Part shown: positions 3,467 through 19,479 of the stretch, one piece after another
Numbering within the stretch: the first letter of the stretch is position 1
How the letters are laid out: the number at the start of each line of letters is the position of its first letter
Source of the DNA: a virus
Virus record (IMG/VR): IMGVR_UViG_3300032285_003210
Span: 1-27,706 of that record
Reading direction: 5' to 3' (one strand)
DNA: 27,706 nucleotides
Made by a program: the position numbers and the translations under genes
Notes under the pieces: generated by a model
What the model was told of the DNA's origin: nothing
The model's input: the letters and a program-made list of their open reading frames with translations, nothing else
Databases searched by the model: none

Positions 3467-4912
3467 CTAGTAGGTGGCAAATTCAGTGTGGATACTTGTC
3501 TTGATTTGGTTCATGTCCACAGGCACCATCAGTTCGGGCATATAGCTGCTGGGACCCTGCTGCATTTTTACACAGTCCACATACATGCTAAATTTGCCCT
3601 CGGTGCTGGTGACCAAAACTTGTGGCACGTCAATTTCCTTGAGCACCTCACCAAACTGTTCAACAAAGCTGGTGTCCACTCCCAATGTATAAAACCTGGC
3701 CCCCCAGTGCGGCCGGCTTACACGGTCAGCTTGCAACCGCATCAGTGCTGTGATTCCATCCAAGTCATGTGGTTTTTGGCTTACACCAAAGCCCACATTT
3801 TTGTAACCCAACAATAACATGGGCACACCATGTTGCCAGCTTTTTTCCAGTAGCAGGGCTGTATCTTGAATGTCCAAGGTTCCCACCACGTGCTGCGCAG
3901 TGATTTTCACACTCCTGCTATCCCAGCCCCTGTTGGGATAACGATTTATCGCATGGTCAATCTTGGCCACCTTGGCCAAGTCCTTAATATTGTGAACACT
4001 GACTCCAATTGCTCCCACATACTGGCGTACTGCCTTGACAAGTTCCTCGTTTTTGAGCCAATCCACACCATATGTGGTGAAGTTGGGAACCATACCCCAT
4101 TGATGGGTGCGCTCTAGAGCTTGTGCCAAATGGGGGTATTGAGTGGTTTCCCCTCCTCCAAAAGCGATCTCAAACACGCCCAAATCAGACAATGCTGCCA
4201 GCGTGGCATTCACATTGCTCCATTCTGCGTGTTGTCCCTGCTTGGTGCTGCTCTGATAACAGAACTGACAACCATAAGTGCAATAGTCAGTGAGCTTCAC
4301 ATCCACCAGTTCCGGGGTTTGTGCCTTGGTATATTCAGGCAGATCGGCATCAAAACTAAATCTAGCCTTGTTACCGCTGTGGGGATCAAAAATGACCCAA
4401 TAATCTCCGTCTTCACGCACCCTTACGTGAGCCCCCGCAGTGTTGGACAGATTGGTGTATTCATTTTCATAACTGTCAGGTGGGGAGATCTGACCGTCGC
4501 TGTTGTCGTTTCCTCCCAGGATAACCACATTGTCTTGCATGAGCCAGTTATGATAGGCCTTAATAAAGCGTGGATTTTTGCCCAAAGTGCCGTTGAATAT
4601 ACTCCACACACTTTGGTGATCCACATTACCCTCACACAGCTCAGATTTTGCATAATCTGTGCCCAGCCATGTGTTCACAAGTTGAACCGCTGTATCAGAG
4701 GGGATATTACTACCCTCCAGAGCCAGCTTGAGCTGAACAGCCAAATAGGCAGTTTTGCTCTCCCTGTCAGCCAAGGTAAAAGTTTCCCAACCGTAATTGA
4801 AACGATTGTCCTCATCAGAACACACACGTTGGCCGGGAGGAATCATTACAATGCTGTGACTGCTGCTACTGTTTGTGGCAAATCCAGCTCGCACATTATG
4901 GATTTTGATCAT
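3467..4912 (-). CDS. Radical-SAM protein with TNSSSSHS N-terminal motif
   Basis: 481 residues. Cys211, Cys215 and Cys218 form the CxxxCxxC motif (CTYGCQFC) that binds the 4Fe-4S cluster used to cleave S-adenosylmethionine. FGGGETTQYP at 251-260 is the usual 'GGE' motif. The region from about 200 to 440 fits a partial TIM barrel. The N-terminal 200 residues are a separate domain starting with a peculiar VRAGFATNSSSSHS segment (residues 7-20), similar to Ser-rich starts seen in other phage and bacterial hypothetical proteins. No SPASM-like Cys cluster is evident at the C terminus. The substrate is unknown; peptide, tRNA or cofactor modification are all possible. The ATG at 4912 has only a weak ribosome-binding site. 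A dedicated sigma70-type promoter and palindrome lie just upstream. Confidence 0.88.
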   Translation of the reverse strand: MIKIHNVRAGFATNSSSSHSIVMIPPGQRVCSDEDNRFNYGWETFTLADRESKTAYLAVQLKLALEGSNIPSDTAVQLVNTWLGTDYAKSELCEGNVDHQSVWSIFNGTLGKNPRFIKAYHNWLMQDNVVILGGNDNSDGQISPPDSYENEYTNLSNTAGAHVRVREDGDYWVIFDPHSGNKARFSFDADLPEYTKAQTPELVDVKLTDYCTYGCQFCYQSSTKQGQHAEWSNVNATLAALSDLGVFEIAFGGGETTQYPHLAQALERTHQWGMVPNFTTYGVDWLKNEELVKAVRQYVGAIGVSVHNIKDLAKVAKIDHAINRYPNRGWDSRSVKITAQHVVGTLDIQDTALLLEKSWQHGVPMLLLGYKNVGFGVSQKPHDLDGITALMRLQADRVSRPHWGARFYTLGVDTSFVEQFGEVLKEIDVPQVLVTSTEGKFSMYVDCVKMQQGPSSYMPELMVPVDMNQIKTSIHTEFATY

Positions 4913-5643: not shown

Positions 5644-6483
5644 CTAGTACTGCACCTTTTTTATTTCGTAGGGATACTTGACTTTGTTGTAGATGGCTTT
5701 GCGCTTGTTCATGTGGTTGTTGCTGAACTTGCACTTGCTGGCCACATCCCAAATAACCACCTCATCCTTGTCGTTGGTTTTGCGAAGACCTCTGCCAATA
5801 CTCTGCACGACCCTGATAAAACTCTTGCCTGGCTCCACCAAAACCACATGATTGATCTTGCCAATGTTGATTCCCACAGCAGCAACACCAAATGTGGCTA
5901 TTACTACCCTGTTGTCCACGATCTCCATCTCACGGTAATATTCTGCACGATCTTTGTTTTTCATTTCTCCGCTTACAAAGATACTGCCCTTGAGATTGTC
6001 ACGCAAAAATTCTCCTGTGGCAATACGGTCCACCAGCACCATTATGTTTCCTGTTTTGCTGATTTCCTCAACCAAACCAGAAAGCCAATTCAGCCTTGCA
6101 GGGTCTGTGGTCAAATATTTGAGCTCATTCTGATAGTCTGTATATTGTGCAGTTTCCTGAGTGTGAAGTATGTTCACTTGACATGATGCCAACACTCCTG
6201 CCTCCTGCAATTCATGTGCAGCCAGTTCACCAATCTGTGGGCCAATGGCAGTAAACAAACTGAGTTGGTTCCATTCTTCTTCGGGCAATGTGCCAGTGAG
6301 TCCCCAACGAATGGGCACATTCTTGAAGTTTTGAGTCATCAACTTTTGAACCACACCCAAATCTTTTACCCCGTGGCAATTGGAGACTACTGCCCCCTCA
6401 ACGATATAATTATGATCTTCTTGAACATGAAGATTATACACGTTTTGAGGTTTATTAATTTCAGTCCTCTTTAGTAGTTTCAT
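5644..6483 (-). CDS. uvsW: Split-intein C-fragment plus UvsW helicase C-terminal half
   Basis: 279 residues. Residues 1-35 are an intein C-fragment ending DHNYIVEGAVVSN, followed by Cys36 as the C-extein nucleophile. Residues 36-279 are the UvsW C-terminal half. It begins with CHG, completing the split DECH motif II, then has WGLTGTLP (motif III-like), FVSGEMK, VVIATFGVAAVGIN (motif V-like) and QSIGRGLRKT (motif VI). UvsW is an SF2 helicase that remodels recombination intermediates and R-loops in T4. The protein needs trans-splicing with the product of 7411-8427 to yield an intact helicase. The ATG at 6483 overlaps the end of the endonuclease gene by 23 nt, suggesting translational coupling. 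Ligated helicase: 241 + 244 = 485 residues, near the usual UvsW size. Confidence 0.93.
   Translation of the reverse strand: MKLLKRTEINKPQNVYNLHVQEDHNYIVEGAVVSNCHGVKDLGVVQKLMTQNFKNVPIRWGLTGTLPEEEWNQLSLFTAIGPQIGELAAHELQEAGVLASCQVNILHTQETAQYTDYQNELKYLTTDPARLNWLSGLVEEISKTGNIMVLVDRIATGEFLRDNLKGSIFVSGEMKNKDRAEYYREMEIVDNRVVIATFGVAAVGINIGKINHVVLVEPGKSFIRVVQSIGRGLRKTNDKDEVVIWDVASKCKFSNNHMNKRKAIYNKVKYPYEIKKVQY
6379..6483 (-). other. Intein C-fragment (IntC) coding segment
   Basis: It encodes 35 residues with intein blocks F and G: QNVYNLHVQEDHNYIVEGA, then VVSN before Cys. The penultimate residue is Ser instead of the common His, as in cyanobacterial DnaE split inteins (IASN then Cys). The terminal Asn and following Cys, needed for cyclisation and transesterification, are intact, so splicing looks competent. 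Confidence 0.92.
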
Positions 6484-7369
6484 ATAGGATTCTCAACTTT
6501 CTTGCGGTTGTGTCATCGAATTTGGATAAATCAGGATTCAATACATTGTTTACCAGCCAATATTGATCCGCTAGTAATACAGTGTATCCATTGTTTTGGG
6601 ACCAGTCTACTAGACTTTCCCATTTGACTTTGAATATCCTATCCTTAGTCAATTCTCTTGGTTTTACTTCAATAACCAACTTATTTTGTTCATCTACAAA
6701 ATCTACAATATAAACTCTTTCTTCGTTGTTATGGGTATAAGGTATTCTTAGCTTTTCATATTTGGCCTGTGGATTATAAGAGTGATATAGTGCCTCCCAA
6801 CTTGATCTGTATTTTAGTCCGTTGAACAGGACATCATAATGAGTTTGTCTATTATTTGAATTGGGAGTAAATCTTCCTTCTTGAATCATGGTCTTCATAA
6901 GCAGAGAATGCTTATTTTTGACCTCCTCTGAGTGCCTTTTACCATACATAGGATTCCCGGCTCCCATACGCCGTTTTGACATATTGTCACACTGTTCTTC
7001 CGTAAGAGGACGTCTCTTATAGTCAATATTTTTCTTCTTACCTTTGATCCACGGTTGTCCAGTGTTTAAATTATTCCTTATATGATCCTTATGGATTTCT
7101 TGGCATTTTTGTCCACGCTTAACGGCCAGAATATGCAAAACATCTAGTTCGCTTATTTCGTTGGTGATCCATTGATCAAAAAGTTCGTACCAGATAGGGG
7201 CTTTAGAATATATCAATCTCTTGCGGAAGTTTTGTAGCTCTCCGCCTATAAACTCTTTACCATTGGTAACTGACCATTTATTTTTTGTGCAGACATCTAT
7301 GCGCAAGATCTGATTACACAGAGCCAACTTGTCATTGATTCTCTCTTTAATTTCAGGATAGGTTTTCAC
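6461..7369 (-). CDS. Free-standing homing endonuclease, PD-(D/E)XK/Vsr-like core with NUMOD3-like motif
   Basis: 302 residues, between the two intein halves of uvsW. A NUMOD3-like DNA-binding motif, NPMYGKRHSEEVKNKHS, lies at 139-155. The nuclease core has YRSSWE (187-192), IPY (209-211), VDF (222-224) and IEVKP (233-237), giving Glu192, Asp223, Glu234 and Lys236 as candidate catalytic residues. The same RSSWE/IPY/xDF/IEVKP series occurs in gp4 of this genome. The start is GTG at 7369, with a strong Shine-Dalgarno (AGAGGAGG, 6 nt). A late-type promoter motif lies at 7394-7401. The presumed role is cutting intein-less uvsW alleles to spread the element. The arrangement matches the 'fractured gene' loci described in environmental phage DNA by Dassa and colleagues. 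Confidence 0.85.
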   Translation of the reverse strand: MKTYPEIKERINDKLALCNQILRIDVCTKNKWSVTNGKEFIGGELQNFRKRLIYSKAPIWYELFDQWITNEISELDVLHILAVKRGQKCQEIHKDHIRNNLNTGQPWIKGKKKNIDYKRRPLTEEQCDNMSKRRMGAGNPMYGKRHSEEVKNKHSLLMKTMIQEGRFTPNSNNRQTHYDVLFNGLKYRSSWEALYHSYNPQAKYEKLRIPYTHNNEERVYIVDFVDEQNKLVIEVKPRELTKDRIFKVKWESLVDWSQNNGYTVLLADQYWLVNNVLNPDLSKFDDTTARKLRILYETTKED

Positions 7370-7393
7370 GAATGCCTCCTCTTTGACTTCGTG

Positions 7394-7401
7394 TATTTAT
7401 G
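7394..7401 (-). promoter_or_regulatory. Late-type promoter motif CATAAATA driving the homing endonuclease
   Basis: Minus-strand CATAAATA differs from the T4 late promoter TATAAATA at one base. It lies 24 nt before the GTG at 7369, in the 41-nt gap between the N-half stop codon and the endonuclease. It would make endonuclease and the C-half transcript independent of the uvsW promoter at late times. Confidence 0.6.
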
Positions 7402-7410
7402 CCATCTACG

Positions 7411-8427
7411 TTAGGAGACGTTTATGATTTCATGATCATTAGTCAATTCATCTGCTCTACACCAGCCTTTGTTGGTCATAAACTTATGATTGCCTGTTAC
7501 TTTAATTACAGTTCCGTTATCGAATTCAAGCTCATACATTTTCTCTGTGTAAGAATTCGTAAGATTAACATGTTGTTTGACAACAATATCCTCCTTGAAC
7601 TCCTTGGTAGATTCAGAATAGTTGATTACCCTGTCCCCTGGTTTTAAGTCTTTAATAGGCACATATCCTTGGGGAGTAAGAACTCTACTCTCCCCGTCGA
7701 AGCACTCATCAACTACGACACAGATCAAGTTTTTCATGAACACTTCCATTTGATGTTCATCCAAACAATCCTTGCTCTTTTTATCAAGAACATTCAAACT
7801 CTGCCAGGTGCAGATGGTGTGAGTGCGGTCATACTCTTTGCGATCACCATACATGACTCCCACATCCAATCCCAGATTGCGGTAGTCCTGCTCTGTTTGA
7901 GTCACCAGACTCTTGTTGGGAACAATCACAATAGTCCTACCATACTGTTCAACTATTTTGCTGAGAGTGGAAGTGATAATGGTTTTGCCCGCGCCTGTGG
8001 CCAATATGTTCACGCCTTGTAGATTGTTAAGGCATTCGTTGATAGCATCCACTTGATAGTCACGAAGCACGATGGGTTGACCTGCAAATCTGTGACCACT
8101 GGGCCAAGTGGTGCCAGCGTGGTATTGTTCATCAATGTTTCCAAAATCAAACTTATGATATGCTCTCTGATCGTCCAGTACAAATTCATAACCACGTTCT
8201 TGTAGCACAGGAATTAGCTTGTCCAGAATGTTCAGATAGCTCTTTCCACCCTGGGTACAAAAGCTGGTGGTTCCATCCCATCGTCCTGTCTTATAAGCAA
8301 AGCTATATCTAGCATGAGGCATAAAAAATTGAACACTCTTGACCAATGCACGCTTGGTGGCTGTATCCACATCTTTGATAGAGATGTTTACTTCGTCTTC
8401 AATAATAATTTTTGCTACGTTGTCCAT
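7411..8427 (-). CDS. uvsW: UvsW helicase N-terminal half fused to split-intein N-fragment
   Basis: 338 residues. Residues 1-241 are the UvsW N-terminal half: a small N-terminal domain (1-115), LRDYQVDAI (Q-motif-like, 121-129), Walker A LATGAGKT (142-149), VIVPNKSLVTQ (motif Ia), and the start of motif II, VVVDE (237-241). At Cys242 the sequence changes to an intein: CFDGESRVLTPQGYVPIKDL (block A), then TGNHKF near 70-75 of the intein (block B). The ORF ends 97 residues into the intein with a normal TAA. The break therefore falls between DE and CH of the DECH box, and no helicase can form without splicing to the product of 5644-6483. Ribosome-binding site AAGGGC. A sigma70-type promoter is just upstream. 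Confidence 0.93.
   Translation of the reverse strand: MDNVAKIIIEDEVNISIKDVDTATKRALVKSVQFFMPHARYSFAYKTGRWDGTTSFCTQGGKSYLNILDKLIPVLQERGYEFVLDDQRAYHKFDFGNIDEQYHAGTTWPSGHRFAGQPIVLRDYQVDAINECLNNLQGVNILATGAGKTIITSTLSKIVEQYGRTIVIVPNKSLVTQTEQDYRNLGLDVGVMYGDRKEYDRTHTICTWQSLNVLDKKSKDCLDEHQMEVFMKNLICVVVDECFDGESRVLTPQGYVPIKDLKPGDRVINYSESTKEFKEDIVVKQHVNLTNSYTEKMYELEFDNGTVIKVTGNHKFMTNKGWCRADELTNDHEIINVS
7414..7704 (-). other. Intein N-fragment (IntN) coding segment
   Basis: 97 codons starting at the Cys1 codon (7702-7704). Block A CFDGESRVLTPQG and block B TGNHKF, with the TxxH residues that catalyse the N-S acyl shift, are present. No dodecapeptide LAGLIDADG blocks occur. With the 35-residue C-fragment the intein totals 132 residues, a minimal splicing domain. 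Confidence 0.92.
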
Positions 8428-9417: not shown

Positions 9418-10140
9418 TCACTTGCGTGCCTTGAGAGCAGCCAGCTTGTCCTGAAGGCTCTGGCTCTTGCCACCGCCATCCACCTCAGCCAAGGCCCGGG
9501 TAATGGCATCGTCAGCTTCCACCGCCTTGCCCAGCACACCACTGCGGATGTTGTTGGCTTCAGCTCGTTCGCGAGCAGCACGAGTATTTGCACTCATGGC
9601 ATCAATGGCCAAGTCAGCACCGCTTAGTCCCTTGGTGATACCAGCCAGGCGCTCCCTGTCAGCTCGGCGCTGGTCAGCCACCTTTTCAGCCTGTAGGGCA
9701 CGAGCCTGTTCACGCTTGGCAGCTTCGATCTTTTGACGGCCCTGCATAACCAGTTGCTGAGCATTCTCAGCCGCCACCCGGGTCTCCTTGGCCCAAGCTT
9801 CTGCATCAGAAGCTTCAGACTCTGCAGTCTCCAACTTTCCAGCCCAATCCAAAGCTTGATCCGCAGCCTTGTTGGCGGCATCTTCATTGCCAGCCATGGC
9901 CAGCTTTTCGGCGGCAGCAGTGTAACGATCCACGTTGCTCTGGATGTTCTTGACCGCATCACGAGCAGTCTTGGCATCAGTTACAGCGCGGGCAGCAGTC
10001 TGGGCCATTTCTCGAGCAGTGTTATCCCACTCCTTGAGTTGGGCTTCACCTACTGCATCAGGATCCCACTTGGCCATCAGCTTGACTGCCCCATCATGCA
10101 GATCCTGTGCCTTCTGGGTAATATAGTTTGTGAGAAACAT
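9418..10140 (-). CDS. PspA/IM30-family (YjfJ-like) coiled-coil membrane protein
   Basis: 240 residues, almost all helical and rich in Ala, Glu, Lys and Gln, the size and composition of PspA/IM30 proteins. These ESCRT-III-related proteins assemble on the inner face of the membrane and preserve its integrity under stress. The C-terminal EADDAITRALAEV...LQDKLAALKARK resembles the end of E. coli YjfJ and PspA ('D..L.E.GI...DVLARLK'). There is no signal peptide or membrane span. It follows a DUF2491(YjfK)-like gene, the same pairing as yjfJ-yjfK of enterobacteria, which strengthens the call. Ribosome-binding site AAGGAG. An unrelated phage coiled-coil protein is possible, but the neighbour makes it less likely. 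Confidence 0.75.
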   Translation of the reverse strand: MFLTNYITQKAQDLHDGAVKLMAKWDPDAVGEAQLKEWDNTAREMAQTAARAVTDAKTARDAVKNIQSNVDRYTAAAEKLAMAGNEDAANKAADQALDWAGKLETAESEASDAEAWAKETRVAAENAQQLVMQGRQKIEAAKREQARALQAEKVADQRRADRERLAGITKGLSGADLAIDAMSANTRAARERAEANNIRSGVLGKAVEADDAITRALAEVDGGGKSQSLQDKLAALKARK

Positions 10141-10163
10141 TTGTTTTACTCCTTGAGGTTGTG

Positions 10164-10910
10164 TTAAGCTACTGAAATTACGTTCTGTGTAGCTGGATCC
10201 AGATCCACGCCCACATACACCTTGACTGTGCCAGTGGCACCCTGGAAGGTAACTAGCAAGTGTTCAACAATAGAGTTCACGTCAGATGTCAAGCGTGCAT
10301 ACTCCATGGCTTCATAAGCAATTATACTGCTGGTGTTCACATATCGGATTTGCTCTTTGAATTGCACAGGAGCATCTTTGGTTGTAGCCCACTGTCTATC
10401 ATAAACTAGGGCAGGAGGACCGTCAATCTGAAATTGTGGCCAGCCAATCAGTCCAGGTTCAATAATTTCGCTGTTTCCCCATTTGTCACGAATAACCATG
10501 CCATGGGCATCGCGACCAATCTTGCCCAGCCAAAATTCCACATCATCCTGTGTGGATACGAGTACATCCTTGTGTAGTGTAAACAAACGACATTGTCTCA
10601 CTTGGTCCATCTTTGCAGCTTGTGTGACCACCTGGAGGAAATTTTCACTACCCTGCAGATACACATTGTACACGTCCATACCAAAAAGATGGATCATACC
10701 CAGATGGCTCACAATTTGGTCGCCTTGGGGAACCTGAATAATACTGCCGTCAGCTTGGGCCAGACCAATATCCACATCTGAGGGATGCCATACACTGCCA
10801 GGAACAAGACCCAGAGGTGCCCGAATTACGGGCAATATAATTGATGTATTTGGGTCAGGTGCGGTTACAGCCTGTACCTTTTTGCGGAAAATATTACCAA
10901 GAAGGCCCAT
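10164..10910 (-). CDS. DUF2491 (YjfK-like) protein
   Basis: 248 residues. The C-terminal third carries the family pattern: VYDRQW (169-174), PVQFKEQI (181-188), AMEYARL (201-207), EHLLVTF, and finally VYVGVDLDPA (231-240). E. coli YjfK has a very similar ending (IGVDLTPA), as I recall it. The N terminus MGLLGNIFRKK is like the short amphipathic start of family members. The biochemical function of DUF2491 is unknown; it repeatedly neighbours PspA-type genes. It lies 23 nt before the PspA-like gene and 12 nt after the Ser/Pro-rich membrane gene. Ribosome-binding site AAAAGGA. Presumed role: partner of the PspA-like protein at the host inner membrane (inference). Confidence 0.75.
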   Translation of the reverse strand: MGLLGNIFRKKVQAVTAPDPNTSIILPVIRAPLGLVPGSVWHPSDVDIGLAQADGSIIQVPQGDQIVSHLGMIHLFGMDVYNVYLQGSENFLQVVTQAAKMDQVRQCRLFTLHKDVLVSTQDDVEFWLGKIGRDAHGMVIRDKWGNSEIIEPGLIGWPQFQIDGPPALVYDRQWATTKDAPVQFKEQIRYVNTSSIIAYEAMEYARLTSDVNSIVEHLLVTFQGATGTVKVYVGVDLDPATQNVISVA

Positions 10911-10922
10911 GACAAAATCCTT

Positions 10923-11618
10923 TTAGCGATTACGAAGCATACTGAAAACTAAGAATCCAGCCACACCCAAGGTGCCCAACCCCAGCAGCCAGATCAGCCA
11001 AGTCCAGCTTGAGCCGACGGAACTCGTGTGAGTAGGCCTACTAGCCATAATAGGAGCAGGCTGATAACCAGGTGTGGGCACATAAATCACTTGCGGTGAG
11101 GATGGCACATAGATCGTTTCACGTTCCATCACAGTCCTGGCTTCAGACCTGGGTGTGGTTGCGGTAGAAGGGCCAGTATAACTGGGAGTAGCAGCACGTT
11201 GTTCCTCACGTTGAACGGGTGTGGGAGCACGGTCAGACTGATAACTTTGATAGGCTGCGGCTGCACCTGCGCCAGCAGCCGCACCAGCCAGTGCCCCTGC
11301 AGGGGCACTTGGCAATTTAGGAGCGGATGGAGTTGAAACAGCTGGTGGAGAAGCAGTAGTAACTGGTTGCGATGAACTAGGACGGCTGAATCCGTTATTG
11401 CTGGGAGCAGCAGTAACTGGGGCGCTAGGTGTGGGGGTAGCCACACGTGGAGAACTGGGGGCAGGTGAACTCACACTGGGACGGCTGAATCCACTGCTGG
11501 AGGAAGAGGAGGGAGAGCTGCTTGAATTGTTACCAGCCCCCAGAGAGGGTGCAGTGAAAAGAGCCATGCTCAGAACTGATGCTGCCAGCATTGAGCGGAA
11601 TGTGATCCTTGAGTTCAT
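10923..11618 (-). CDS. Secreted Ser/Pro/Ala-rich protein with C-terminal membrane anchor
   Basis: 231 residues from the ATG at 11618. The longer frame to 11699 is rejected because it would begin upstream of the operon promoter. The N terminus MNSRITFRSMLAASVLSMAL is a signal peptide, with likely cleavage after SLGA. Residues 28-190 are low-complexity Ser/Pro/Ala/Thr sequence containing two GFSRPS repeats and an Ala/Gly-rich patch, then VIYVPTPGYQPAP. The last 29 residues (WTWLIWLLGLGTLGVAGFLV...RNR) form one transmembrane helix with a basic cytoplasmic tail. It would span the periplasm with the tail facing the YjfK/YjfJ-like proteins. First gene of the operon. Family not recognised. Confidence 0.78.
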   Translation of the reverse strand: MNSRITFRSMLAASVLSMALFTAPSLGAGNNSSSSPSSSSSSGFSRPSVSSPAPSSPRVATPTPSAPVTAAPSNNGFSRPSSSQPVTTASPPAVSTPSAPKLPSAPAGALAGAAAGAGAAAAYQSYQSDRAPTPVQREEQRAATPSYTGPSTATTPRSEARTVMERETIYVPSSPQVIYVPTPGYQPAPIMASRPTHTSSVGSSWTWLIWLLGLGTLGVAGFLVFSMLRNR

Positions 11619-11649
11619 AAGGAATACTGCCTTTGTTATGATATCTGGT

Positions 11650-11677
11650 ATTATACGGCGAATATGCCAGGTGTCAA
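11650..11677 (-). promoter_or_regulatory. Consensus sigma70 promoter of the PspA/DUF2491 operon
   Basis: Read on the minus strand: TTGACA (perfect) at 11672-11677, a 16-nt spacer, TATAAT (perfect) at 11650-11655. The start would be near 11642. It is the strongest promoter in the window and overlaps the 3' end of the kinase gene at 11674. Confidence 0.8.
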
Positions 11678-12144
11678 CCGGCCACGTGAACCTGGTCAAA
11701 CCCTTCTTCTTCAGTGGGCATTTCCAGTTGGCTGGCCATACCCATCACCACATTAGCCGGAATGGTCTTACCTGCGCGGCTATCAAGCCTACGCTTGAGT
11801 TCCGTACTGTTGGGGGTGGGAAAGAACACTGCCACCTTGCGATAAGTAGCAGGCACGTGGGCCAGCTTGGCGCGGCGTGCCTTGGCAGTCACATTTGTCT
11901 GGTCATGGATCACATCAAATCCATTGGCCAAAGCATCTGCAATGGCCTTGTTCATGTGATTGGTGGCTGCCTTGATCTCAGATTGGAAAACCTGAGAGTA
12001 GGTCTTACCCTGCGCCTTGGCCTGCATTTCAATAAAATGATCAGTGCTTGCAAGAACAGTGTTGCTCCAGTCAATAGGCTGTTTGGAAATCCAGGTGCTC
12101 TTACCAGAGCCTGGAACCCCAATCAGCATGGTATAAGTGGGCAT
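11674..12144 (-). CDS. P-loop kinase, polynucleotide-kinase-like
   Basis: 156 residues from the ATG at 12144, which overlaps the upstream TAA (TAATG). Walker A GVPGSGKST lies at about 9-17. STDHFIE, then DVIHDQTNVTAKAR (the 'D-x-T-N' motif) and FFPTPNSTELKRRLDSR (LID-like arginines) fit the kinase domain of T4 Pnk and related zeta-toxin or AAA_33 kinases. T4 Pnk also has a C-terminal 3'-phosphatase domain, which is absent here. Likely reaction: ATP-dependent 5'-phosphorylation of nucleic acid, perhaps in RNA repair. No RNA ligase gene is seen in this window. Other small-molecule kinases of the same fold cannot be excluded. Last gene of the AAA+ operon. Confidence 0.82.
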   Translation of the reverse strand: MPTYTMLIGVPGSGKSTWISKQPIDWSNTVLASTDHFIEMQAKAQGKTYSQVFQSEIKAATNHMNKAIADALANGFDVIHDQTNVTAKARRAKLAHVPATYRKVAVFFPTPNSTELKRRLDSRAGKTIPANVVMGMASQLEMPTEEEGFDQVHVAG

Positions 12145-13908: not shown

Positions 13909-14694
13909 ATGGACCGTTTTGCTCTTATTACAGCCCGCACCCAAGAAGTGCTCAACCAGGCTGAAGCGCTCTATGGCGTAAAGATCAACCCCAGCATTGC
14001 TTTCAACCTCCGCGGTCGCGTTGCAGGTTGGGCTGGCTGCAAGTTTTGCTTCCTCACTCGTAAAGCTACTCAGTTCAGCTTGCGTTTCAATCGCGAGCTG
14101 ATTACGGGCAACCATTTTGACGATATGATGAACAACACTGTGCCCCATGAAGTGGCCCATTTGGTTTGTTATGCGCGCCCTGAACTGGGCCGCAAGCATG
14201 ACGGTGGTTGGAAGAGGGTGTGCATGGCGCTGGGCGGCAATGGAGATCGTTGCCACAATTATGATGTGGTGGTCAAAGGTCGCTGGGACTACCTCACAGA
14301 CCTAGGAAACAAGGTAAGTGTCACCAAGAAGCACCATGTGTATGTGCAGCAAGGCGGTACCCTGCGCTTCAAGCGGGGGCTGGGTATGATCAGCAAAGCC
14401 AGCATGTGCGCTCCCAGCGGCCAACTCCAAGTGACACCCAAGTCAGATGGCACGGTTGTGGTTCGCACCCAGCCCAAGAATGAACCTGCTGTGACACCCA
14501 AGAAGGAAATTACCAAGACTGTGCCGGTGAGCAAGGATGGTGAGCTCACTTGGGCAGAGAAGGTGCGGCGTTTGATTCGGGCCAACAAGCCAGAAGGCAT
14601 GAGCATGGATACGGTTATCGTGTTGGCCATGGACCTGGGCATGACCAAGGAACGTGCCAAGAGCTGTGTCAAGGCACATTGGAACAAGATTTAA
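13909..14694 (+). CDS. SprT-like zinc metalloprotease domain protein
   Basis: 261 residues. PHEVAHLV at 79-86 is the HExxH zinc site, with the third ligand likely His96 in GRKHDGGWKRVC, the SprT spacing. SprT/Spartan proteases cleave DNA-crosslinked proteins in eukaryotes; the bacterial and phage roles are unclear. A GWAGCKFCF Cys pair (residues 40-48) precedes the active site, and a KFCF-type second metal site is possible. Residues 150-205 are a basic, Pro/Thr/Lys-rich linker. The last 50 residues (WAEKVRRLIRANKPEGMS...AKSCVKAHW) look like a helical, DNA-binding-type tail. First gene of a plus-strand operon, with its own promoter. Confidence 0.85.
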   Translation: MDRFALITARTQEVLNQAEALYGVKINPSIAFNLRGRVAGWAGCKFCFLTRKATQFSLRFNRELITGNHFDDMMNNTVPHEVAHLVCYARPELGRKHDGGWKRVCMALGGNGDRCHNYDVVVKGRWDYLTDLGNKVSVTKKHHVYVQQGGTLRFKRGLGMISKASMCAPSGQLQVTPKSDGTVVVRTQPKNEPAVTPKKEITKTVPVSKDGELTWAEKVRRLIRANKPEGMSMDTVIVLAMDLGMTKERAKSCVKAHWNKI

Positions 14695-16503: not shown

Positions 16504-16962
16504 TTAATCCAATTTGGCGTCATCCATTCCCGAAACACGGAGCCTTGTGATATTATTGATACTAAAACTTTTGGCTTCCAATCCCTTGATGACGGCCAAA
16601 TATTTATTGCGCACTAGAGCCACCTCGTTTATGAGCATGCTCATGTCCACAATGTCTTCTTCACCGTCAATATATTTTTCAATGCTGCGATCAGTCAGCT
16701 CTCTGTTGTAACGTTCCAGATACTTGCGATAATGATCGCTACGCATCTTGTCATACTTGACGTTCAAGTGTTTGAGAACAGCTTCAATTTCTTGAAGCTG
16801 ATCAAATCTGTAAGCTACACAACCAGGCAAGTCTTGAGCATTTTTTTCAAGACTTCCCCTGATACGAGTTTCCTCTCTGGCCACCAAGGCTTCAGCACTG
16901 TAATGCTCAATCATGTCAGGTAGTCTACCCAAGTCAGCCTTTATACGGAGGAACCATTGCAT
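16504..16962 (-). CDS. Helical protein, possible UvsY-like recombination mediator
   Basis: 152 residues, mostly helical and charged. T4 UvsY (137 residues) loads UvsX onto gp32-coated DNA. Like it, this protein has a coiled middle (FDQLQEIEAVLKHLNVKYDKMRSDHYRKYL) and ends in a helix with VRNKYLAVIKGLEAKSFSINNITRLR, similar to the UvsY ending 'L..I..RGFAIKHI...R'. The location a few genes from uvsX and gene 32 fits. Identity is weak and the N terminus (MQWFLRIKADLGRLPD) is not UvsY-like. Ribosome-binding site AGGA. Otherwise a conserved phage protein of unknown function. Confidence 0.75.
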   Translation of the reverse strand: MQWFLRIKADLGRLPDMIEHYSAEALVAREETRIRGSLEKNAQDLPGCVAYRFDQLQEIEAVLKHLNVKYDKMRSDHYRKYLERYNRELTDRSIEKYIDGEEDIVDMSMLINEVALVRNKYLAVIKGLEAKSFSINNITRLRVSGMDDAKLD

Positions 16963-17230: not shown

Positions 17231-17470
17231 TTATGAATACTTGAGACTCAAAACAGTCTGGTATTGGTCAAACAAATGCTTGAGATCAGGGTCTGTTTCC
17301 CGCAACTGTTGCTCACGCTCCACCTTGCGTTTATACTCTTGCACCCACACCAAAGTTTCACGGAGATTATGGGTCATTCCAATCATAATGTCTACACCTC
17401 CCTGTCTTTCCAGGGTGCCCACCATGAGCATATCAGGATTGTTGCTGATAACATCCACTATTTGCCTCAT
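17231..17470 (-). CDS. 79-residue conserved phage protein, unknown function
   Basis: The ATG at 17470 overlaps the radical-SAM stop as ATGA. A longer frame to 17500 has no support. MLMVGTLERQGGVDIMIGMTHNLRETLVWVQEYKR gives a compact start with a 'GTLE..GGV..MIG' pattern that I associate with uncharacterised proteins of marine T4-like phages. The second half is a charged helix. Tight coupling suggests it works with, or is made in proportion to, the RlmN-like enzyme. Confidence 0.78.
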   Translation of the reverse strand: MRQIVDVISNNPDMLMVGTLERQGGVDIMIGMTHNLRETLVWVQEYKRKVEREQQLRETDPDLKHLFDQYQTVLSLKYS

Positions 17471-18318
17471 GACTGGTTTCCCGAAATAAACTGCCCGCAA
17501 CTGGCGTAAACTTCACGACCAACCCGGGATATGATCTTGCAAGGCATGTATTCACTGATCACTTCCTGAATGGCTTCCAAGTTGACACTTTCTAGGCCCT
17601 GATCAGATGTGAGTGGATTGTATCGCACAATATTGAATTCTCCACGGATTCCCCTGCGCCAGATTTCATGAGCCATTTCACGAACCTGATCCACATGATC
17701 ATTCTCACCCTTGATGAATGCTCCATGAAATTTGATAATTTTCTTGCTCACAGATTGATAATCCTTGAGCAACTCTAGGCTGGTGTCCACAGGCAAACTG
17801 GTGGGTAGCCACCGCTTGCGAAAATTGGCATCTACACTATAGATGCTGTAGTAGATGGTGGGACTGATAAACGGAAAACACTCAACCAGGTTCTTCTTTA
17901 GAGTAACTGGCAGTATGGTGCTGATGTTAAACTTGGTGGCCAAACCCCTATCACGAGCAATACTTCCCAACATATACAGCATCTCTGTGCTGGTTTCTGT
18001 TATGGTGGGATTGGCCATGGGTTCTCCGCGGGCCATCCAATTTATGTGAACAAGTTTGGCTGGTGCTTCTCTTTCATAATGCCGTAGCACTGTTTCGAAC
18101 TGATTTACAAAATCAGTAAGGTCGCAATTTTTGAACTGAGTTTGACCTGTTGCAGTCAAGTGGCACATGCGGCAACCGCGATTGCAACCAGTTTGGCTGC
18201 TCAAATAGGCAATAAAATAATCCTCAGCTCGGCGAACATAACGACTTTCAATAAAGCCCGTGAGTTGTTGTTCCACAAAATTCACACTTGGGTCTTGACT
18301 GTCTCTCAAGATTTGCAT
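17467..18318 (-). CDS. RlmN/Cfr-like radical-SAM protein lacking one catalytic cysteine
   Basis: 283 residues. LSSQTGCNRGCRMCHLTATG (39-58) holds the CxxxCxxC cluster motif (Cys45, 49, 52) in the SSQ-x-GC setting typical of RlmN and Cfr. These methylate C2 or C8 of A2503 in 23S rRNA; RlmN also acts on tRNA. MARGEPMANP (95-104) matches the family GMGEPLxN motif. YASCGQF near the C terminus matches AACGQL, so Cys274 is equivalent to the methylated Cys355 of E. coli RlmN. The other catalytic cysteine (Cys118 in RlmN) is replaced by Tyr38. The protein is about 100 residues shorter than RlmN, mainly at the N terminus. It could be a diverged nucleic-acid methyltransferase or a repurposed enzyme. 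Ribosome-binding site GAGGA; between uvsX and the ATGA-coupled 79-residue gene. Confidence 0.85.
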   Translation of the reverse strand: MQILRDSQDPSVNFVEQQLTGFIESRYVRRAEDYFIAYLSSQTGCNRGCRMCHLTATGQTQFKNCDLTDFVNQFETVLRHYEREAPAKLVHINWMARGEPMANPTITETSTEMLYMLGSIARDRGLATKFNISTILPVTLKKNLVECFPFISPTIYYSIYSVDANFRKRWLPTSLPVDTSLELLKDYQSVSKKIIKFHGAFIKGENDHVDQVREMAHEIWRRGIRGEFNIVRYNPLTSDQGLESVNLEAIQEVISEYMPCKIISRVGREVYASCGQFISGNQS

Positions 18319-18390: not shown

Positions 18391-19479
18391 TCAAACTTCA
18401 GAATCAACTGATGTGGCTTGATGGCCACGCTCACGGCGTTCCAGAGCGTCATGGAACTCGTCCATGACTGCTTCTAGGCAGCCATCCTCATTCCTGTCCC
18501 AGGGCTTTTCAAACTGCTTGATCTGTGTGCCATCCAGCTTTGTGTAGGCCCACTTGTTGCCTTCCTTGACCAACAGCTTCTTTTGAACAAACAGGTCAAA
18601 CAAGCCACTGAAAGGATCCATACCCCTGTCATAGGGGATCTTGATTTCCACCTGCTCAAAGGGCTTGTTGTATCGTGTCTTCATGATCTTGCATTGAGCA
18701 CGGATACCACTCACTTCACCGCCTGTGAGCTTGTTACCCATCTCATCTTCCTTGAGCTTGAGCTTGCGCATGGCCAGCACAATGCTTGAGGCATAGATGG
18801 GACCCTGTCCACCACTGATCACGTCATCAGGATTGAACATGTCCTGGCTGGCATAACTGTGGTTGGTGCAAACCATACCCACATCATATTCACCAAACAT
18901 GTTCACACAGTTGCGCACCAGTGCAGCCAATGCCTTGGGCTTGCGACCCATGTCGCCCTTGAGATCACCAGCTTCAAACTGATTCACGTCAGTGGGTGTG
19001 AGCATCATGCCCAAACTGTCAATCACAAACAGCACACGTGGACGAAGATCTTCATCCACGCTGCCATACTGAGTCTTGTAATCCTTCATAAAGTCGCTGA
19101 TCAGCTTGGCAACATCGTCAATCATGGCCATGTTGGCCTTGAGCAACTTGTCCTCGCTGGTGTCCACATCCAGTGCCTTGAGCCAGCTTTCGTCCAGAGC
19201 GTTTTCAGTATCAATCAGCACCACAAACACATCTTTCTTTTGTGCGTTGGCTGTGATATTACCTGATGCAAGAAAGCTCTTGCCTGATCCACTCTGGCCA
19301 CCCAGCATGGTCACCTTGCCCAGTGGAATTCCACCGTCACGGAAACGCCCGCTGATTGCATAGTTGAGTGCATAATTGCCAGTGCTGATCCACACCTTGG
19401 GATCACGAAACCCCATACTCAAACCAGGGATGTTTTTGGTGATGTCCTTGCGGAACTTACTTAAATCTAGTGCTTTCAT
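18391..19479 (-). CDS. uvsX: UvsX RecA-like recombinase
   Basis: 362 residues, a normal length. UvsX forms filaments on single-stranded DNA and drives strand exchange in recombination-dependent replication. Walker A is GGQSGSGKS (60-68), with Walker B-type RVLFVIDSLGMM and a RecA-like loop around DMGRKPKALAALVR. VCTNHSY matches the sensor strand, and SGGQGPIYASS the L2/Q region of T4 UvsX. The C terminus is charged and polar, as in RecA. Preceded by AAGGA. It lies directly downstream of gene 32 with a hairpin in between. Recognition is strong from motifs and length. Confidence 0.96.
   Translation of the reverse strand: MKALDLSKFRKDITKNIPGLSMGFRDPKVWISTGNYALNYAISGRFRDGGIPLGKVTMLGGQSGSGKSFLASGNITANAQKKDVFVVLIDTENALDESWLKALDVDTSEDKLLKANMAMIDDVAKLISDFMKDYKTQYGSVDEDLRPRVLFVIDSLGMMLTPTDVNQFEAGDLKGDMGRKPKALAALVRNCVNMFGEYDVGMVCTNHSYASQDMFNPDDVISGGQGPIYASSIVLAMRKLKLKEDEMGNKLTGGEVSGIRAQCKIMKTRYNKPFEQVEIKIPYDRGMDPFSGLFDLFVQKKLLVKEGNKWAYTKLDGTQIKQFEKPWDRNEDGCLEAVMDEFHDALERRERGHQATSVDSEV

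Follow-up and report, generated by a model that had tools for sequence, protein, structure and literature searches.

A protein encoded by what is probably a giant T4-like phage, related to the RNA methyltransferases RlmN and Cfr, carries an invariant tyrosine, Tyr38, at the position of their second catalytic cysteine. This Tyr-for-Cys change is real, lies at a catalytic position of a known enzyme class and is apparently undescribed: in the literature searched, where coverage was partial, we found no earlier description of a Tyr family or of Tyr at the Cys118 site. Our preferred reading, held with about even confidence, is that the protein is an active RlmN/Cfr-type radical-SAM nucleobase modifier of a giant T4-like phage, whose Cys-CH2 adduct would be resolved by Tyr38 in a rebuilt pocket.

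The gene and its surroundings

The window, by which we mean the whole 27,706-nucleotide (27.7-kb) viral record analysed here, encodes terminase, gp32-like, UvsX and UvsY proteins of a T4-like phage. Its closest relatives, with matching gene order, sit on contigs as long as 328 kb, so that the window probably represents part of a giant phage genome. The 283-aa open reading frame placed at 17467-18318 by the original prediction is real but lies on the minus strand; the plus strand over this interval is full of stops, with no open frame. It is preceded by TGAGGA, a ribosome-binding-like sequence, and its stop codon is overlapped by the ATG of a 79-aa ORF (17231-17470, minus strand), making translational coupling of the two likely. 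The closest relatives likewise have the small ORF downstream of the gene, even at two loci (L027 and L039) where the uvsX-uvsY setting has been lost. That setting, a UvsX-like recombinase upstream (18391-19479, minus strand) and a UvsY-like recombination mediator downstream (16504-16962, minus strand), is conserved in the clade that includes the window, as is the proximity of an SprT-like metalloprotease with an HEVAH motif (13909-14694, plus strand).

Several other features of the window are worth recording. A second radical-SAM gene (3467-4912, minus strand) encodes a 481-aa protein that carries a CxxxCxxC motif and an additional N-terminal region of about 190 aa; it matches PHROG 16999 at 119 bits and, weakly, the viperin family (42 bits against a cut-off of 180). 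A helicase gene (5644-8427, minus strand) is split by an apparent split intein in its DECH box (...VVVDE|CFDGES... / ...VVSN|CHGVKDL...), and an endonuclease-like ORF (NUMOD3, weakly TnsA-like) lies between the two halves at 6461-7369. The interval 9418-11699 (minus strand) holds a cluster of PspA/IM30-like (weak), DUF2491 and small membrane-like proteins that is unusual for a phage.

Tyr38 and the catalytic positions around it

The RlmN/Cfr motifs listed in the original prediction are all present (SSQTGCNRGCRMC at residues 40-52, MARGEP at 95-100 and the terminal SCGQF at 273-277), and Cys274 (codon 17497-17499, minus strand, as are all codons below), there taken to be the methyl carrier, indeed aligns with carrier Cys355 of E. 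coli RlmN. The [4Fe-4S] cluster motif CX3CX2C (18163-18186) is formed by Cys45, Cys49 and Cys52, equivalent to RlmN Cys125, Cys129 and Cys132; Met95 corresponds to RlmN Met176, and Glu24 (18247-18249) to RlmN Glu105, which has been proposed to deprotonate the carrier Cys (PMC9692996). These residues of the first half of catalysis are intact and invariant in 99 relatives, conservation within residues 48-55 and 93-100 being partly by construction, as the two peptide patterns used to fetch relatives cover those stretches. Residues 24, 38, 160, 198 and 274 are untouched by either pattern.

Tyr38 (18205-18207) lies seven residues before the first cluster Cys, the same spacing as Cys118 in the alignment with E. 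coli RlmN, and an independent phmmer search against the PDB pairs it with residue 105 of Cfr, a Cys, and with the corresponding Cys of Sphaerobacter RlmN, bearing out the position originally assigned to it. The column holds Tyr in 14 of 14 relatives in our first set and in 99 of 99 in a widened set, which was drawn from phage records, viral contigs and bacterial genomes, includes some near duplicates and takes in one giant-plasmid protein, that of a Pseudomonas serbica plasmid. Canonical RlmN has Cys in this column in 35 of 35 sequences, and on these counts Tyr at position 38 is not chance. Its invariance in a family whose columns average near 41% identity points to a chemical or structural role and away from lost function.

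Other pocket positions have changed together with Tyr38 and are likewise invariant. Tyr160 (17839-17841) replaces His235 of RlmN, and His198 (17725-17727) stands where RlmN has Glu278 and Cfr has Ala. Arg97 (18028-18030) replaces Met178 of RlmN and Met157 of Cfr, its invariance, like that of Asn93, reflecting in part its place inside a search pattern. The original prediction had allowed for another Cys in the catalytic pocket; none besides Cys274 and the cluster Cys is conserved among the 99 relatives, which rules out a replacement Cys serving the family from elsewhere in the pocket. The protein thus has the architecture of a class A radical-SAM methylase, with CX3CX2C and a C-terminal carrier Cys on an RlmN/Cfr-type barrel with strand extension, but a single conserved non-cluster Cys does not accommodate the two-cysteine mechanism of that class.

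An AlphaFold2 model of the protein (pLDDT 92.3, pTM 0.90) is matched best in VIA-align by RlmN cross-linked to tRNA (5hr7; Z 28.4, 2.3 Å over 261 residues, 15% identity), followed by Cfr (Z 20.2), while the next unrelated family, pyruvate formate-lyase activase, scores Z 17.0. The nearest folds are therefore those of RlmN and Cfr, and not those of an unrelated radical-SAM family, an outcome that would have told against the original prediction. The model aligns with RlmN residues 83-361 only. The loop that holds Cys274 is of low confidence (pLDDT 51-73). In Cfr the backbone of a loop residue, Phe330, reads the adenine (PMC13001441); both proteins have a spacing of 8 between this residue or its equivalent and the carrier Cys, as would suit an adenine-like target.

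Relatives, carriers and phylogeny

With RlmN, the 23S rRNA m2A2503 and tRNA m2A37 methyltransferase, the protein shares the fold over residues 83-361, CX3CX2C, the carrier Cys355, Glu105 and Met176; it differs in having Tyr for Cys118, Arg for Met178, Tyr for His235 and His for Glu278, and its 283 aa lack the N-terminal helical RNA-binding domain. Cfr, the 23S rRNA m8A2503 methyltransferase, is slightly nearer in sequence (82.5 against 57 bits in a profile search) and has in common with it an RYNP motif, which is PWNP in RlmN, but again Cys105 is replaced by Tyr38 and the N-terminal domain is missing. Scores fall below the curated cut-offs for both enzymes: 57.2 bits against 290 for RlmN (TIGR00048), and 53.9 and 51.8 bits against 530 and 550 for Cfr (NF000424 and TIGR04432). 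Together with the missing N-terminal domain and the tree described below, these scores rule out a plain phage RlmN. The protein instead matches PHROG 27142 (Fe-S-cluster redox domain-containing) at 282.6 bits, residues 8-278 covering positions 13-299 of a profile of 300. That cluster is unnamed and makes no mention of the Tyr feature, and some of its members are labelled RlmN in GenBank. Proteins of phages 201phi2-1, Phabio, Psa21 and CcrColossus, annotated as Fe-S-cluster redox domain-containing, all have the Tyr.

Phage carriers of the Tyr family include phiKZ-like Pseudomonas phages (201phi2-1, Phabio and Psa21) and giant phages of Caulobacter and Brevundimonas, and the gene is found on many uncultured viral contigs of about 200-465 kb. 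It is also carried by plasmids of 0.27-1.3 Mb in Pseudomonas, Acetobacter, Acidiphilium, Rhizobium and Miltoncostaea, and by scattered bacterial contigs and chromosomes. Since it is present in a single copy in each of 28 large phage records (28/28), and a canonical RlmN above cut-off is also present in all six bacterial carriers tested, the Tyr-family protein does not stand in for RlmN. On planctomycete and similar contigs (L097, L102, L104, L107, L109 and L110) a divergent gene for a leucine-rich-repeat protein precedes that of the family. One family member (L026, 6001-6852) has an in-frame stop at residue 81, which is Tyr in its relatives; the stop is TAA, ruling out amber recoding, and represents either a sequencing error or a broken gene.

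In our tree every Tyr protein falls into a single clade (99/97 support) on a long branch far from RlmN. Two other phage proteins, one with Val at the Cys118 position (L015) and one with Cys (L016), branch between the Tyr clade and RlmN, although their branches are long and their placement insecure; no relatives of either were found in viral contigs. The former is an RlmN-like protein of Klebsiella phage 05F01 (BBK09218; L015 1929-2858), 25% identical to ours, whose gene is flanked by an ADP-ribosylation gene on one side and an anaerobic ribonucleotide reductase on the other.

Mechanism, target and alternative explanations

Catalysis by RlmN and Cfr begins with methylation of the carrier Cys; the methyl group is turned into a radical that adds to the adenine, after which a second Cys strips the ring proton and the C-S bond breaks (PMC9692996, PMC13001441). 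Recent work casts this resolving Cys mainly as the base for the C2/C8 proton and less as a disulfide former. Its loss traps a covalent cross-link, as the original prediction stated and as has been demonstrated for RlmN C118A and for Cfr C105A and C105S (PMC9692996, PMC13001441). With the first half of this chemistry kept, and the second Cys exchanged for an invariant Tyr amid invariant neighbouring changes, the most economical interpretation is that the enzyme is active and that Tyr38, with the rebuilt pocket, would resolve the adduct. One SAM would methylate Cys274; a second would yield the 5'-deoxyadenosyl radical, which would abstract a hydrogen from the Cys274 methyl; and the resulting Cys-CH2 radical would add to the target base. 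Tyr38, with Arg97, His198 and Tyr160 in the rebuilt pocket, would then perform the resolving step or a hydrogen-transfer equivalent, the product most likely being a methylated base. The fold, the catalytic residues of the first half and the invariant Tyr are established by the comparisons above; turnover, resolution by Tyr38, a nucleobase target and methylation as the outcome are predictions. Against resolution by Tyr38, the adduct is not resolved by Cfr C105S, so a hydroxyl is no automatic substitute (PMC13001441), and a Tyr side chain placed where the Cys sulfur lies ~3 Å from the base would be expected to clash unless the base sits differently. The absence of the N-terminal domain, with which Cfr holds its RNA (PMC13001441), also counts against the preferred reading.

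A rival that we consider rather unlikely is that the scaffold serves a different chemistry: the Cys-CH2 or 5'-deoxyadenosyl radical would act in hydrogen-transfer repair or on some other base or group, such as a pyrimidine whose smaller ring leaves the purine-ring space to Tyr, so that the product would be neither 2- nor 8-methyladenine. The joint, invariant alteration of Tyr38, Tyr160, His198, Asn93 and Arg97 and the long branch between the Tyr family and RlmN favour such a change, and the distances in Cfr (PMC13001441) suggest that Tyr38 should displace an adenine placed as in that enzyme; however, the spacing of the adenine-reading backbone loop is retained, and the sequence names no alternative substrate. 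Ordinary RNA methylation in which an external thiol or a non-conserved Cys resolves the adduct is decidedly improbable: the window protein does have Cys65, Cys147 and Cys260, but these occur in 10, 5 and 21 of the 99 relatives, respectively, and cannot serve the family. A catalytically dead relative that binds only nucleic acid or an Fe-S cluster would account for the absence of one residue essential in RlmN, but with every catalytic residue of the first half invariant we regard it as highly improbable.

It is also conceivable, though improbable, that, as in RlmN C118A and Cfr C105A/S, the adduct forms and is never released, so that the protein would cross-link stoichiometrically to RNA or DNA of the host or the phage. 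Loss of the resolving Cys is precisely what traps the adduct in those enzymes (PMC9692996, PMC13001441), and the SprT-like protease of the window, with its HEVAH motif intact, is encoded about 3 kb from the gene. Proteases of the SprT-like type digest DNA-protein cross-links. Yet SprT-like proteins are found in 5 of 28 large carrier records (3 above cut-off), so a suicide cross-linker paired with SprT is not general; giant plasmids and bacterial chromosomes live with the Tyr-family gene; and a Tyr that is invariant rather than relaxed argues for a job at position 38.

Genomic context touches on both RNA and DNA as candidate targets of the active enzyme that we favour. Near the gene are tRNA genes, RtcB and a CCA-adding enzyme in Pseudomonas and Caulobacter phages, and an RNase II-family exoribonuclease on one plasmid. 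Among the large records, a set made up of carriers only, 25 of 28 have tRNA genes (up to 65), but none were detected in L028 (the closest large relative of the window), 201phi2-1 or L089, which weakens the idea of an enzyme for phage-encoded tRNAs only. The largest sets comprise 65, 57, 55 and 53 tRNA-family matches per phage contig, the 266,899-base L043 record being among these contigs. A 453-kb phage contig (L039) has, at 3871-4026, a pair of tRNA genes called as tRNA-Pyl (anticodon CUA); of 10 long plus-strand ORFs in its 12.8-kb locus, none terminates with TAG. The enzyme may act on host ribosomes or tRNA, as the original prediction found attractive, but three carriers are without detected tRNA genes and the domain by which RlmN touches RNA is absent. 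On the DNA side, genes for recombination, replication or nucleotide metabolism adjoin it in 8 of the 25 lineages that we sampled, with neighbours that include uvsX/uvsY, a gp46-like ATPase, LigA, DnaB with primase, thymidylate synthase and dCMP deaminase. Of 99 near neighbours, 10 are DNA-metabolism genes; in a weak control of 140 genes lying farther away, at least 8 are (25 of 52 families listed), so the DNA-repair and DNA-metabolism neighbourhood is suggestive and barely above control.

The RlmN/Cfr mechanism has been taken to require the resolving Cys. A large family found in nature, in which this Cys is always exchanged for Tyr with the prior steps kept, is a ready-made test of how protein-nucleic-acid adducts are broken, and database entries that call these proteins RlmN would be corrected. 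Tentatively, and with more doubt than confidence, we suggest that the family may represent a one-cysteine class A, a separate class of radical-SAM nucleic-acid enzymes, widespread among giant phages and giant plasmids, whose Tyr resolves the adduct or whose Cys-CH2 radical makes a new base modification, possibly on DNA. Its study would identify what these phages and plasmids make with it, an unrecognised nucleic-acid modification or a cross-link.
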